From NCBI RefSeq assembly GCF_963082655.1, contig NC_081555.1, positions 31,047,266 through 31,111,265 of the forward strand: DNA of 64,000 bases, given 5' to 3'. Positions 11,128 through 57,955 of this stretch are shown here, one piece after another. The notes below the pieces were generated by a model. That model was given only the letters and a program-made list of their open reading frames with translations. It was not told the origin of the DNA and did no database searches. Origin of the DNA: Stomoxys calcitrans (lineage: Eukaryota > Arthropoda > Insecta > Diptera > Muscidae). The position numbers and the translations under genes were made by a program. How positions within the stretch are numbered: position 1 is the stretch's first letter; each line of letters starts with the position of its first letter.

Positions 11128-11912
11128 TTAGATGGAGTCTTTTGGGATTGCTGTTTTGGTAAGAAGTTGTTTTGAGGAGTTTTTACTATCTGGAGTGACG
11201 TTTATGTTTTGACCATAGGATGGGTTTTTCTTCTGGTGCAATACACTCGCGTTCACGTACACTGGCACGGGTCGTGCTGCCGGTGTAGTGGGGGCTGCCG
11301 GTGGTACTGCTGTGGTTATGTGGGGTGGCGGAGGAGGTGGCACGGCGGGTACTGTGGCCACTGCTTCCATAGGGTAGGGCACAGCAGTCTCCGTCTTCGG
11401 TGCTGCCACTGCCTGTGTCACCTCCTCGTCCTCTTCCTCCTCTTCCAAAATGATATCTCCGCCCACCAGGGCTATGCGATTGATCTCTTTTAAGGGGCGC
11501 GTCGTCGTTGTCGGGTTGTTGCCATTGCGCTGTTTGAGATTGTTGTTGTTGTTGTTGTTGCTGGGATGACTGCAGCCGGTATTGGGGTTTAGATTTAGAT
11601 TCTCTGTGCTCTGGTCTGGCAAAGATTGATAGCTCTTCGCTGCCTCTGGCTTTGTTGCTGCTGATGTCTCGTCTTTCTTGATAGATGAAGGTATTGCCGC
11701 CGCTGCTGCCATTGCCACTGGGATTGATTCCTTCGTGTTTGCTGCACTGTCGCTCGCCGCCGCTGACGGCGTACTTGTTTGCGCTGCTGTCAATTCCATA
11801 GCTGAGACTTGGGCGGAACTGCTGCAACTGGTATTTGGCTGTTCCACTGCCGACATTTGCGAGACAATAGTGCGACTGTGGTTGTGGCTCAATCCGGTAT
11901 CTTTCCATTTCT
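11128..11912 (-). CDS. moody: moody coding exon 5, dual-frame
   Basis: Acceptor TTTTAG ends at 11913, with a second AG at 11912-11911. Frame A stops at 11128 and frame B at 11186. The 67-nt intron before it (11979..11913) begins GTATGT. Retention of that intron would stop translation after two codons (GGT ATG TGA). Confidence 0.85.
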
Positions 11913-14900
11913 CTAAAACAAATGAGAGTGACTTAGATGTTTGCTCCATTACCTGGGGTGGGGGAATACTATCACATACCTGCAGCACTACTGCCACCGC
12001 CGCCATTGGCGCCCGTGCCGTGCTTGCCAAAAGGCAGTAGACGCGAGGGCTCACACATGATAACCGTTCGGTACGCCTTGCGGTACTGCTTGTTCATGAT
12101 CACATATATGATGGGATTGATGCAAGCCGACAAGTACAGCATTATATAGCTGAGTATGTGTAAATTGGGATGCTCCACCTCCTGGTCAGCGACTTTGGCA
12201 ATTGTTATGGGCAGATAGCAGACAACAAAACTCAAGAATATGGCCAACACCATTTTGGTGATGCGCCACTCATTGCGCTTGGCCCGCACCTCTCTTTGGT
12301 CCTTAATGCGTGAGGTGGATTGCTTTTGAATCGATTCTTGCTTGACATCCGTGGAAAAACTGCTGCTCGATGACACCCTACTCTGAAGATTTGCCGCATC
12401 CATATTGCTGGCTGCCGCCGAGGGTGGAGGCCTCAGATTATTTGGTATTGAATTCTGCTTGTTTGCATGACGTTTTAGCCTTTGCTCCGATTTGTGTACC
12501 ACCCAAAAGATTTTCGTATAGCAGGCGATAATAATTATACAGGGTATTACAAAGGCCGTAACGAAGAGTGTGGTTTTACTACTATGGCCATGGTCATCTT
12601 CCCGAATGGAGCAAGTGCCTAATTTTTCATCGTATGCAAAAGTACCCCAGGCCCCAACCAGGGTTGGCAGCTGCATGCCATATGAGAAAACCCAACAGAA
12701 TACAATCATAGCAGCAATCCAATGGCGTTTGTAGATTTTCCCGTACGAATTGTGATGGGCTATCATAACATATCTGAAATAAAAGGAGATAGAATTTGGT
12801 AATTTTATTAACATTTGGAATGAAATGGTGATTTAAACATAAAGGTTAACGTCGTCATGGATACATTTTAGTTATTATGAAATTCATGTCAACTGTTTTT
12901 ATCTTATCGTTGCTAAAACGAGTTTAACAATGGAAAAGTTCATGTCTAGAAATTCTTAGAAATTCATATCTAAATTCACTTTTAAATGATGTAACTGGAG
13001 GGGCGATATATACTGCAAATCAGCCTGGCTGAACAAGGTTTTCTTTAGGAAAACTGCAATTCAGCCTGGCTGAATAAGGTTTTCTTTACGAAAATTGCAA
13101 TTCAGCTTGGCTGAATAAGGTTTTCTTTAAGAAAACTGCAATTCAGCCTGGCTGAATAAGGTTTTCTTTGGGAAAACTGTAATTCAGCCTGGCTGAATAA
13201 GGTTATCTTTAGGAAAACTGCAATTCAGCCTGGCTGAATAGGGTTATATTTAGGAAAACTGCAATTCAGCCTGGCTGAATAAGGTTTTCTTTAGGAAAAC
13301 TGCAATTCAGCCTGGCTGAATAAGGTTTTCTTTAGGAAAACTGCAATTCAGCCTGGCTGAATAAGGTTTTCTTTAGGAAAACTGCAATTCAGCCTGGCTG
13401 AATAAGGTTTTCTTTAGGAAAACTGCAATTCAGCCTGGCTGAATAAGGTTTTCTTTACGAAAATTGCAATTCAGCTTGGCTGAATAAGGTTTTCTTTAAG
13501 AAAACTGCAATTCAGCCTGGCTGAATAAGGTTTTCTTTGGGAACTGTAATTCAGCCTGGCTGAATAAGGTTATCTTTAGGAAAACTGCAATTCAGCCTGG
13601 CTGAATAGGGTTATATTTAGGAAAACTGCAATTCAGCCTGGCTGAATAAGGTTTTCTTTAGGAAAACTGCAATTCAGCCTGGCTGAATAAGGTTTTCTTT
13701 AGGAAAACTGCAATTCAGCCTGGCTGAATAAGGTTTTCTTTAGGAAAACTGCAATTCAGCCTGGCTGAATAAGGTTTTCTTTAGGAAAACTGCAATTCAG
13801 CCTGGCTGAATAAGGTTTTCTTTAGGAAAACTGCAATTCAGCCTGGCTGAATAAGGTTTTCTTTAGGAAAACTGCAATTCAGCCTGGCTGAATAAGGTTT
13901 TCTTTAGGAAAACTGCAATTCAGCCTGGCTGAATAAGGTTTTCTTTAGGAAAACTGCAATTCAGCCTGGCTGAATAAGGTTTTCTTTAGGAAAACTGCAA
14001 TTCAGCCTGGCTGAATAAGGTTTTCTTTAGGAAAACTGCAATTCAGCCTGGCTGAATAAGGTTTTCTTTAGGAAAACTGCAATTCAGCCTGGCTGAATAA
14101 GGTTTTCTTTAGGAAAACTGCAATTCAGCCTGGCTGAATAAGGTTTTCTTTAGGAAAACTGCAATTCAGCCTGGCTGAATAAGGTTTTCTTTAGGAAAAC
14201 TGCAATTCAGCCTGGCTGAATAAGGTTTTCTTTAGGAAAACTGCAATTCAGCCTGGCTGAATAAGGTTTTCTTTAGGAAAACTGCAATTCAGTCTGGCTG
14301 AATAAGGTTTTCTTTAGGAAAACTGCAATTCAGTCTGGCTGAATAAGGTTTTCTTTAGGAAAACTGCAATTCAGTCTGGCTGAATAAGGGTTTCTTTAGG
14401 AAAACTGCAATTCAGTCTGGCTGAATAAGGTTTTCTTTAGGAAAACTGCAATTCAGTCTGGCTGAATAAGGTTTTCTTTAGGAAAACTGCAATTCAGTCT
14501 GGCTGAATAAGGTTTTCTTTAGGAAAACTGCAATTCAGTCTGGCTGAATAAGGTTTTCTTTAGGAAAACTGCAATTCAGTCTGGGTGAATAAGATTTTCT
14601 TTAGGAAAACTGCAATTCAGTCTGGCTGAATAAGATTTTCTTTAGGAAAACTGCAATTCAGCCTTCCAAGCTAAGCTACAATAGCTATTATTTTTCATAA
14701 AAATTATACAACTATGTATTTGCAAAAATTTCAAAAAACGAAGTTTATGCTTTTTCACACAAAATTTTATTCTTCTTTACCTTTTTTACAATTTTTGTTA
14801 TACTTTTTGTTGGCATCACTGCTGGTGTTTATAACCAAGGAGGATGCAAATAACGGATTAGTTTTTATGCTCTCAAAATTTTACAGCAAATGTCAAGCTG

Positions 14901-17900
14901 TCGGTAATTATTTTATTTTTTTTCAAAGCAAGCAGTTCTGCCGGAAAAATTAGAAAAAACAGATTTCCAGCAGAGAGAAAAGAAACTAAAGAAAGAAAAA
15001 ATATTGGAAATTAAGACTGCCGAAACCCTACATTCATGCATTACGCCATAGTTTCCTTCAAGGGAAAAGAAATAATGCATATTTAGAAAATCCAAATGAC
15101 GCAAACTGCATGCCATTGAGAGCAGAATTCTGCTTGCGGCATGTTCTTAGATAATTCGCATTTACCTATGCTAATAACTTTAATATTAATCGTCTCATAT
15201 GAACAACAGAAGCTACAAAAATCACACACTCTCTGTCTGTCTCTCTCTCTCTCTCTCTCTTACTCTCCCCCTTACTTTCTCTCTCCCTTTCATCCAATCT
15301 AGGACTACTTTGAAATGCCCTTCATTTATTGTCTTACACTTTGTAAATATTTTACCCATTTCTCCGTGTATACGCCCCTATACTTTTGCTAGCTAACGGT
15401 AATATGTTGAGTATCTCTTAACTCACCTGTTAATGGTGATCATAGCAATACATAGTAATGAAACACCAATGTTGCCATACTGTATAAATGGTATCATCTT
15501 GCAAAGAACATCTCGCGGCTTCCAAGTGCCTTCAATGAAGCGGAAAGCACTAAATGGCAACACCAGAGCACAAAATAATAAGTCGGCAATACACAAACTG
15601 AAAAAAAAGAAACAAAAATAATGAAATTTAAGAAATTAAAAATTTTTAAGTAAAAACAAAGAAAAAAAATTCTTAATTAGTTCGGTTGGATCGAATCTTA
15701 TATACCCTACAGCATGGATCGCATTTTGTAAAGTTCTTTGTAAGGGTTCTCAAAAGAGAACTTCTCTTTATAGGCAGAAACTAAAAGGGGATTATGGAGG
15801 TCAAACACTTAATCCCATGGATTTTTTTTTTAAATATATATGGATAAGAATTTGTTTTCTGCAGTTGTTCAAGAAGTCAAATCCAGACAAATCGAGTCTA
15901 TTTGTGAGCTTTATCAGGTTAGAGACCTGAGACCTATTTTGATCTTGGAATTCATATCAGAAGTCATCGTGTAAAATTTAAGCCAAATCGGATAGGAATT
16001 GCACTCTCTATTGGCTTAAGAAGTAAAATCGGAAGATTAGTTTATATGGGAGCTATAACAGATTACATACTTGGCATGTAGGTAGGAGGTTCTTGTGCTA
16101 ACTTACAGACAAATCGGAGAATTATTGCGTACCCTAGGGTTTCAAGAAGTCAAATATGTAGATGGGTTTTTATGGGAGACAAACGGACGGACATTAACTT
16201 TGAGTTACAAACTGATCAATTAAATACAGAATATTTTATGATTCATTGCTTTAGAAACAATAATTCAAGATTTTGGAAACCGAAATACCCACATCCTATG
16301 ATAGTATCGAAATATAAAAACCAACTTTAAAATATTAAAACACTTACCTCATAATAAATGCTGCTGCCACATTTCGCACTTTGGGACATTTGATTAAAGC
16401 TGCCACTGTTAAGAAGTTACCAAATATGCCAACAACCATTATAAGCAGGGTCATGACGGCCGCAAACGTTAGCATGGATGGTGAAAATCTAAAAAAAAAA
16501 CGAAAAAATTAATAAAATCTGTAATTGGTCACACTATTTTAACATTCATGCAATAGCATTGAGATGAAGATAAATGGAAAGAGGAAAAGAGTTGAAAGTT
16601 CCTCAAAGTCATCAAATCTTAGTCCCTTATTTTCCGCTTCAACAATGATGATAAGAGATAAGCTAGCACATCAAAAGGAAATTTTATGCCTGCCAAAAAA
16701 ACGCCCATTGCTTGCTTTCGTATTGCAACACAGTCAGGCTTATCCACATGTTCCTAAAAGAAGCCATTAATTGTTCATCTATCAAAGAACTTCATTCATG
16801 TGTTCCCTCTCCTTCTTTCAGTCAACATTAAAATAATCCCAATATAGACATTGTCATTGTCTCTGCAGATGATGGCACATCCCGTCGTTTACGCACAATC
16901 GTATGTTGGATAGTATCGCAAGTATTGGGTCAAAAAAGTCACATGTTCTGTGATACGAAAATAGGAATGGTACTTGCAAAGGAATTCGAAAATGTCCAAA
17001 TTTGTTGGAAAGGGGAGAATATTTTTAAAATACGAACAGGGTACCGTGTGAATAATTTAATTAATCTTAACATAACCATATGCAAATTTGCCCACTAACA
17101 TTTCATTAAGGAACAGGGGGCAAACATTTCGTTAACCAACCAGCTGGCACCAAATAGTGTCTCAGTAAAAGTCGTGAAATTGCAAATTTTGTCCATGAAT
17201 ATTCCACTAAGGAATAGGGGCAAACTTCTCAATTTTCAATGTGTGCAGTCCGATTCAAGTTTAAGCAAAATGATAAGGGGCCTCCGTTTTATAGCCGAGT
17301 CCGAACGGCGTGCCGCAGTGCGACTCCTCTTTGGAGAGTAGTTTTACATGGCATAGTACCTCACAAATGTTGCCAGCATTAGGAGGGGAAAACCACCGCT
17401 GAAAATGTTTTTCTGATGGTCTCGCCAGGATTCGAACCCAAGCGTTCAGTGTCATAGGCGGACATGCTAACCTCTGCGCTACGGTGGCCTCGTGTGTGAA
17501 CTGAAGTTATTTTCTCAGTTGAGCACCAAATGAAGAAGTGAACATTATAAAGCAAAATAGAGAAATACCAACTAGCAAATGCCAATGGCACGGAAGTCCT
17601 CAGTGGATCTTTATATGGAACGCCTGAAGAAAGTCAAAATGGGCACCGGAGCTAAAGATACTCAAGAAAGGGAGTAGGACACAACGGAGTAGGGTAATAA
17701 GAGATTAGGAACATTAGTAGATACGATCAGAAATAAATGGAATCACAAGAGAGTGGGAGCACAAGAGATTAGGAACATAAGAAAATAGTAATATAAGAGA
17801 GAAGGAGGATAAGAGTGAAGGAGTAGTGAAGAGTGAAGAGAGTAGTGTAACAAGGGAGTAGGGTCCCAAGAGAGTGGGATCACAAAAGATAAGGACCACA

Positions 17901-56244: not shown

Positions 56245-57955
56245 TTTATACCCTCCACCATAGGATGGGGGTATACTAATTTCGTCATTCTGTTTGTAAC
56301 TATTCGAAATATTCGTCTGAGACTCCATAAAGTATATATATTCTTGATCGTCGCGACATTGTATGTCGATCTAGCCATGTCCGTCCGTCCGTCTGTCCGT
56401 CCGTCTGTCCGTCCGTCCCTCCGTCCGTCCCTCCGTCCGTCCCTCCGTCCGTCCCTCCGTCCGTCCCTCCGTCCGTCCCTCCGTCCGTCCCTCCGTCCGT
56501 CCCTCCGTCCGTCCCTCCGTCCGTCCCTCCGTCCGTCCCTCCGTCCGTCCCTCCGTCCGTCCCTCCGTCCGTCCCTCCGTCCGTCCCTCCGTCCGTCCCT
56601 CCGTCCGTCCCTCCGTCCGTCCCTCCGTCCGTCCCTCCGTCCGTCCCTCCGTCCGTCCGTCCGTCCCTCCGTCCGTCCCTCCGTCCGTCCCTCCGTCCGT
56701 CCCTCCGTCCGTCCCTCCGTCCGTCCCTCCGTCCGTCCCTCCGTCCGTCCCTCCGTCCGTCCCTCCGTCCGTCCCTCCGTCCGTCTGTCTGTCGAAAGCA
56801 CGCTAACTTCCGAAGGAGTAAAGCTAGCCGCTTGAAATTTTGCACAAATACTTTTTATTAGTGTAGGTCGGTTAGTATTGTAAATGGGCTATTTCGGTCC
56901 ATGTTTTGATATAGCTGCCATATAAACCGATCTTGGGTCTTGACTTCTTGACCCTCTAGAGGGCGCAATTCTCATCCGATTTGAATGAAATCTTGCACAT
57001 AGTGTTGTAGTATCACTTCTAACAACTGTGTTAAGTATGGTTCAAATCGGTTCATAACCTGGTATAGTTGCCGTATAAACCGATCTTGGGTCTTGACTTC
57101 TTGAGCCTCTAGAGAGCGCAATTCTTACCCGATTGGAATGAAATTTTGCACGACGTGTTTTGTTATGATATCCAACAATTGTGCTAAGTATGATTCAAAT
57201 CGGTTCATAACCTGATATTGTTGCCATATAAACCGATCTGGGATCTTGATTTCTTGACCCTCTAGAGGGCGCAATTCTCATCCGATTTGACTGAAATTTT
57301 GCACATAGTGTTTTAGTATCACTTCTAACAACTGTGTTAAGTTTGGTTCAAATCGGTCCATAACCTGGTACAGCTGCCATATAAACCGATCTTGGGTCTT
57401 GACTTCTTGAGCCTCTAGAGAGCGCAATTCTTACCCGATTGTAATGAAATTTTGCACGACGTGTTTTGTTATGATATCCAACAATTGTGCTAAGTATGAT
57501 TCAAATCGGTTCATAACCTGATATAGCTGTCATATAAACAGATCTGGGGTCTTGACTTTTTGAGCATCTAGAGGTCGCAATTATTATCCGATTTGCCTGA
57601 AATTTTGTACAACGGATCCTCTCAACATACGTGTTTATTATGGTCTGAATCGGTCTATGGCCCGATACAGCTCCCATATAAATCGATCTCTCTATTTTAC
57701 TTCTTGAGCCCCCAAAGGGTGCAATTCGTATTCGAATTGGCTGACATTTTACACAGGTCTCCAACATATAATTTAATTGTGGTCTAAACCGGATTATATC
57801 TTGATATCGCTCTAATATCAGAGCAAATATTTTCTTATATCCTTTTTTTGCCTAAGAAGAGATGCCGGGAAAAGAACTCGACAAATGTATTCCATGGTGG
57901 AGGGTATATAAGATTCGGCCCGGCCAAACTTAGCACGCTTTTACTTGTGATATGT
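56245..57955 (+). repeat. Complete ~153-bp-unit dispersed element
   Basis: It starts TTTTTATACCCTCCACCATA and ends CCATGGTGGAGGGTATATAA, GGCCAAACTTAGCACGCTTT. The inner parts of both ends (ATACCCTCCACCAT) are therefore inverted copies. Units spaced 153 bp show TGCCATATAAACC near 56916, 57069, 57222 and 57375. The CCGT-rich head has expanded (see 56382-56793). No coding potential. Confidence 0.88.
56382..56793. repeat. CCGTCCGTCCCT simple repeat, ~410 bp
   Basis: Thirty or so copies of the 12-mer CCGTCCGTCCCT with one phase break near 56651 and (CCGT/CTGT) ends. It grew from the short GTCCGTCCGTCTGTC that all members of this dispersed repeat carry. It translates as RPSLRPS, DGRRDGR or GGTDGGT depending on frame and strand, none of which is a real protein. 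Confidence 0.95.

Follow-up and report, generated by a model that had tools for sequence, protein, structure and literature searches.

The window, a stretch of 64,000 nucleotides from Stomoxys calcitrans (contig NC_081555.1, positions 31,047,266 to 31,111,265), contains a receptor gene on its minus strand; all positions below are those of the window. Three exons, assigned by their splice sites and joined frame, form a single open frame when joined: 16488–16348, which starts FSPSMLTF.. and holds the first transmembrane part, 15597–15427, and 12773–11980, where NPIIY lies and the tail begins (..GGGGSSAA). The joined receptor part is a rhodopsin-type seven-transmembrane receptor (Pfam 7tm_1, E 2.5e-50); among solved structures it comes closest to GPR84 and other class A receptors. 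The best among the 120 of 284 matches listed include proteins named moody from Haematobia irritans (80% identity), Musca autumnalis (77%) and Lucilia cuprina (69%). By these matches, judged from pairwise identities rather than a tree, the gene is the moody orthologue, in agreement with the initial annotation. The intron between 15427 and 12773 harbors a satellite at 13012–14664, in which a 41-nt unit recurs about 40 times (97% matches). A 12-nt repeat, GTCCCTCCGTCC, is present in 34 copies at 56379–56785, where it is open in several frames on both strands and produces spurious open reading frames of 143–227 amino acids. At approximately 17420–17490 on the minus strand, visual inspection suggested a possible tRNA-derived SINE in a tRNA-like stretch with GTAGCGCAGAGGTTAGC and GGTTCGAATCC; ARAGORN reported no tRNA anywhere in the 64-kb window, this stretch included.

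The receptor part is joined to the last exon across a 67-nt intron on the minus strand (11913–11979). The donor GT (11978–11979; G/GTATGT, last exon base 11980) is common to both products in the initial annotation, and a branch-point-like CTAAG (11932–11936), a consensus match, places its A 20 nt before the end of the first AG. The acceptor reads TTTTAG/AG/AAATGG, i.e. TTTGTTTTAG/AG/AAATGG, with two AGs 2 nt apart at the exon start. It is a 2-nt tandem acceptor (TTTTAGAGAAATGG) with CTAAG lying 20 nt upstream. Cutting after the first AG (UAG; 11913–11914) starts the last exon at 11912 and gives tail A, whereas cutting after the second (GAG; 11911–11912) starts it at 11910 and gives tail B. Frame A joins in frame as ...GGGGSSAA-EKWKDTG and its stop ends at 11128 (coding part with stop, 11128–11912; 261 residues, including the one split by the junction); frame B joins in frame as ...GGGGSSAA-EMERYRI and its stop ends at 11186 (11186–11910; 241 residues, counted likewise). 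Frame B occupies 725 nt of the last exon, and the third frame contains 10 stops across the same stretch. The window moody has two tails that differ by reading frame, and A-type and B-type tails both occur in relatives, the latter with signs of constraint. The core of this had been proposed from the initial inspection of the DNA: an exon open in two frames over about 725 nt, both joined in frame to the receptor, with the first AG leading to frame A and the second to frame B. Its coordinates (11980, 11912, 11910, 11128 and 11186) are exact to the base.

The two tails differ in composition and charge. Tail A is rich in Ala (13.4%), Pro (11.1%), Asn (8.8%) and Glu (6.5%), as had been claimed, with Ser (10.7%) and Thr (10.0%) equally high, and has a net charge of –4. 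Tail B was described as rich in Gln, Gly and Arg, and these residues make up 29% of it versus 8% of tail A; its net charge is +9. No Pfam domain was detected in either tail at E ≤ 0.1. Arrestin sites were dropped as a contrast between the tails, because both window tails match the pattern for such sites (tail A with 1 short and 6 long matches, tail B with 4 short and 1 long).

The openness of frame B exceeds chance. When protein A was fixed and synonymous codons were redrawn, frame B was open in 0/20,000 resamplings under each of three codon usages, with a mean of 9–15 stops, and shuffling the codon order of A never left frame B open. With protein B fixed, frame A was open in 0.4–2.9% of redraws. 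These resamplings rule out that frame B is open by chance and identify a dual-coding (multiphase) exon, in which two frames open beyond chance are joined to one start.

The homologue matches listed (120 of 284 and 120 of 349) comprise 150 distinct proteins; sorted by pattern, 71 of them start the tail as type A (EKW..) and 27 as type B (EMER). If both tails are read from one exon two bases apart, a single DNA must be able to encode the A and B proteins of a given species. With the stop counted where reached, incompatible positions numbered 0/211 in S. lebanonensis, 0/161 in Zeugodacus cucurbitae, 0/158 in Bactrocera oleae and 0/101 in Teleopsis dalmanni. By comparison, shuffled B tails (200 for each of four pairs) gave means of 164/211, 129/161, 36/48 and 30/38 incompatible positions, with minima of 149, 117, 30 and 23, and three mixed-species controls lost compatibility after 29, 15 and 5 codons. 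The A/B pairs of four other flies thus fit one DNA, which bears out the reading of the two tails as alternative-frame products, as noted for Drosophila moody in the initial annotation. The D. melanogaster A protein and the D. melanogaster-like B protein P0049 are incompatible at 1/235 positions. The receptor part of P0049 (400 residues) is identical to that of the A protein, and its B tail of 234 codons, plus the stop and minus the upstream-exon base, amounts to 704 nt.

The pairing extends beyond the higher flies. The B tail of An. moucheti (47 residues) shows 0/48 incompatible positions against the A tails of those four other Anopheles proteins that match it best; the Anopheles B tails P0085 and P0093 have no perfect A partner among the matches listed, the best having 6/39 incompatible positions. 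The lepidopteran tails listed comprise A tails starting EKW[NK]ER.. (6 proteins, 38–42 residues) and B tails starting EMERAS.. (15 proteins, 71–143 residues). Danaus plexippus B against D. chrysippus A and Nymphalis io B against Euphydryas editha A each give 0/38 incompatible positions, and the other 13 lepidopteran B tails have 2 to 6 with their best A tail, as expected for cross-species pairs. As judged from these short cross-species pairs, two-frame reading is therefore probably older than the divergence of Diptera and Lepidoptera. The overlap spans approximately 140 nt in Anopheles, approximately 300 nt in Teleopsis, where A stops early, and approximately 470 to 725 nt in tephritids, Scaptodrosophila, D. 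melanogaster and the window.

Several homologues depart from this arrangement. In Teleopsis dalmanni (P0046/P0059), tail A is shortened to 101 residues and tail B has 160, a shift in frame balance within that lineage. The mosquito-type proteins P0082, P0084, P0086, P0088, P0089 and P0090 and the Culicoides protein P0075 are isoforms reading ..SSVGDSPHP..QHLVAIQDS and ..SSANDSPHPGHLPVIPDN.., which skip the last-exon start, so that a far downstream acceptor also exists there. Lepidopteran proteins including P0119 and P0134 carry a further short tail (GAYPSSP..SERTSA..SYIR.), which probably originates in a different exon or through read-through of an intron. That the tandem acceptor arose in winged insects through a change of the first codon was considered, since cockroach, dragonfly and orthopteran A-like tails start with DK; the EKW of a mayfly tail (P0099) speaks against it.

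Selection on tail B was assessed against a null in which each relative's protein A was kept, codons were redrawn with B open at the codon usage of the window's own receptor exons, and the match to window B was scored in 2000 runs; p values are nominal and refer to five relatives, two of them tephritid, whose DNA was inferred from proteins. For the first 20 residues of B, identity exceeded the A-only null in 5/5 comparisons (0/2000 runs, 0.0005, 0.003, 0.0105 and 0.031); these codons adjoin the splice site, and splicing signals may contribute to their conservation. For the last 26 residues, it did so in 4/4 testable comparisons (0.0005, 0.002, 0.007 and 0.0475), the value of 0.0475 being that of D. 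melanogaster, where the similarity score gave 0.09. In the middle of B, identity was not above the null in 4/5 comparisons (0.125 to 0.695), Teleopsis being at 0.036, and the similarity score fell below 0.05 in 2/5 (S. lebanonensis 0.0195, Teleopsis 0.0275). The whole B tail gave p < 0.004 in 4/5 comparisons and 0.063 in D. melanogaster, and the reverse test, A given B, yielded 0/2000 in 5/5. In deep comparisons (flies, Anopheles and Lepidoptera), identity reached p < 0.05 in 2/6 and the similarity score in 6/6 (0.0047 to 0.046). Because the middle of B serves as an internal control and its synonymous sites appear close to saturation, the conservation of the B ends is unlikely to be owed to common descent alone. 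Taken together, these comparisons of protein sequences indicate that the B ends are kept beyond what A imposes, with the middle mostly just held open. The initial annotation had called for both frames to be compared among flies for constraint; on DNA inferred from the relatives' proteins, protein-level selection is indicated for frame A in 5/5 comparisons and for frame B at its ends, and mostly not for the middle of B. B as a pure by-product of A is ruled out for the ends, and not for most of the middle.

These results bear on a reading in which only tail A matters, frame B being open through the composition of A and B transcripts being splicing noise. The B middle, not above the A-only null in 4/5 comparisons by identity, fits this reading, as do a homologue search with tail B alone, which found no match at E ≤ 0.001, and the lack of a B-type protein among the five calyptrate proteins in the 120 of 284 matches listed (P0001–P0004 and P0054; four A-type and one tailless). 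However, chance openness in 0/20,000 resamplings and B ends that exceed the A-only null argue against it. Furthermore, Teleopsis dalmanni B retains EEKPII past its A-frame stop, and lepidopteran B tails extend past the A stop, all 15 listed having RF[QED] among their final 22 residues. The D. melanogaster rescue experiments, in which both isoforms are needed for behavior according to the excerpts consulted (PMC3554526), also speak against it, and we regard it as very unlikely.

More than one splice route leads to frame B. As the 2-nt acceptor predicts, the junction is plain in 23/27 EMER-type proteins, many of which are predicted models. One of the plain junctions belongs to P0071, whose 481 codons lie on a contig no longer than 1603 bases and must therefore derive from spliced RNA. 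The other four of the 27 point to further routes. S. lebanonensis X2 (P0048) reads AAGIEMERY, with a GI insert that fits a donor at +4 used with the first acceptor; B. oleae X2 (P0044) has VRFR before EMER, which fits an acceptor approximately 10 nt upstream; and the moth proteins P0129 and P0137 carry other inserts before EMER. In addition, P0130 and P0133 read QMERAS following an insert. For B. oleae, P0044 and its A protein together imply TTYAG/AG/AAATGG at the junction, with TTYAGAGAAATGG in its DNA. The window itself contains an alternative donor GT 4 nt downstream (11974–11975), which with the first acceptor gives ..AAGIEMERY.. in frame B and was overlooked by the initial annotation. The 2-nt acceptor that it put forward as the switch fits most of the junctions and is not the sole possible switch.

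Frame B might accordingly be made mainly by the tandem donor GTAT/GTGA and the first acceptor, with the weak GAG little used. This route is open in the window, where it adds 243 residues after SSAA, its product has an exact counterpart in the AAGIEMERY of S. lebanonensis X2, and tandem donors 4 nt apart are reported in the excerpts consulted as favored in human and mouse, whereas acceptors 2 nt apart are not (PMC2423196). By comparison, the GI junction is found in 1/27 B-type proteins and the plain one in 23/27, the transcript-derived P0071 included, and we consider the donor route unlikely to be the main one. Intron retention, which in the window would end the protein at ..SSAAGM (stop 11974–11972), offers another product. 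Three proteins among the matches listed end SS..GM as retention predicts (P0004 of Musca vetustissima, P0053 of Bactrocera latifrons, and P0074), in line with a tailless receptor as the important alternative product and frame B as secondary. These may come from incompletely spliced transcripts, and a tailless receptor leaves the openness and partial conservation of frame B unexplained, which makes it extremely unlikely as the main account.

Near its end, tail B contains EEKPIL (11216–11233), which fits the acidic-dileucine sorting pattern [DE]xxx[LI][LI]. Counting the window, EE[KS]PI[LI] is found near the tail end in 8/9 higher-fly EMER sequences; the exception, P0067, is flagged by its source as a low-quality model and returns to frame A. 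Across this site in higher flies, frame A is variable (QKKNPSY, PKKSQYY, PKRNQYY, LKKVPSY) and B retains EExPI[LI]. EExPI[LI] was encodable in frame B within the last 60 residues for 32/50 A tails of at least 150 residues, compared with 25/2400 shuffled tails, the A tails being related and not independent. The motif is absent from 4/4 nematoceran-type and 15/15 lepidopteran B tails listed, and therefore cannot be the ancestral function.

Excerpts of the published work describe much of this arrangement in Drosophila. D. melanogaster moody (CG4322) encodes Moody-alpha and Moody-beta, the same receptor with a single last exon in two frames, as in the window. According to the FlyBase authors, its 704-nt two-frame overlap is the longest in D. 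melanogaster (PMC4528330), a figure equal to that obtained from the D. melanogaster-like P0049; the window overlap is 725 nt. A two-frame exon has also been reported for D. virilis moody PC from genomic inspection (PMC9624432). Read together, these papers make it probable that tail B corresponds to isoform PC and Moody-beta and tail A to Moody-alpha. Window and D. melanogaster B tails have the EMERYR start and EEKPIL in common, and their middles differ greatly. Drosophila PC, that of D. virilis included, is reported without arrestin-type sites (PMC9624432), whereas window tail B has pattern matches. The D. melanogaster protein P0052 (isoform B, 407 residues) finishes with SSAAERNGKIPG, read from this exon's third frame, which suggests three consecutive AGs (AGAGAG) and a third, truncated product in that species; the TTTTAG of the window leaves no room for this at its acceptor. 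The name isoform B clashes with transcript RB, said to encode Moody-alpha (PMC3554526).

The window acceptor resembles NAGNAG-type tandem acceptors, in which a single 3' splice site likewise offers two closely spaced, competing AGs. The usual spacing of 3 keeps the frame, whereas the spacing of 2 in the window would swap the whole tail for another long protein. Xbp1 and Ada2b in flies and dual-coding events in C. elegans likewise produce two frames from one RNA by splicing, through other splicing reactions (Ire1 for Xbp1) and with mostly shorter overlaps (PMC4528330, PMC13247117). Excerpts of the literature searched, the 2005 Cell paper excluded, contained no two-frame moody exon outside Drosophila or in Lepidoptera and no conserved B ends. 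The arrangement is real and largely described; its history is deeper than in the accounts we encountered, and frame B has a second possible route. The A/B pairing in Scaptodrosophila, tephritids, Teleopsis, Anopheles and butterflies (38 residues) is added here.

We favor, with a probability of roughly 0.8, the reading that the last exon would provide two receptor tails through tandem acceptors, and we propose from sequence that the choice acts as a trafficking or desensitization switch. The same receptor core would carry two differently handled tails. The first acceptor (UAG) would lead to tail A and the second (GAG), two bases on, to tail B, both being predicted to be used in the window species. 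A UAG acceptor is usually stronger than a GAG acceptor, and A would for this reason be the default. Tail A is the longer tail and has an acidic stretch, and tail B is a low-complexity spacer that in higher flies finishes with EExPIL/I, a putative acidic-dileucine sorting signal. The splice choice would alter trafficking or desensitization in barrier glia, not what the receptor senses. A broader proposal, which we offer tentatively and rate somewhat below even odds, is that the 2-base tandem acceptor may have been the tail switch of this receptor since before the fly/butterfly split, each frame having acquired a handling code of its own: an acidic, phosphorylatable A, and a B whose start is constrained and whose end, in higher flies, is of the acidic-dileucine type. 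The overlap would have expanded from approximately 140 nt in mosquitoes to more than 700 nt in certain higher flies, around an unchanged switch.

In animals, long stretches that code in two frames are rare. If a 2-base splice choice held from butterflies to flies, it would offer a natural test of joint selection on overlapping proteins. In excerpts of the D. melanogaster studies, moody has two receptors with differing long tails, either of which restores the barrier in nulls, while drug responses and courtship require both (PMC3554526, PMC3510462). Male and female heads are reported to have different isoform ratios, and the reason for needing both isoforms is described as not clear in the 2013 courtship paper (PMC3554526). 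The switch would tie a measurable splice ratio, reported as sex-different in fly heads, to receptor behavior at the blood-brain barrier, and the conserved tail B ends and EExPIL may provide a concrete mutational handle on why both isoforms are needed.
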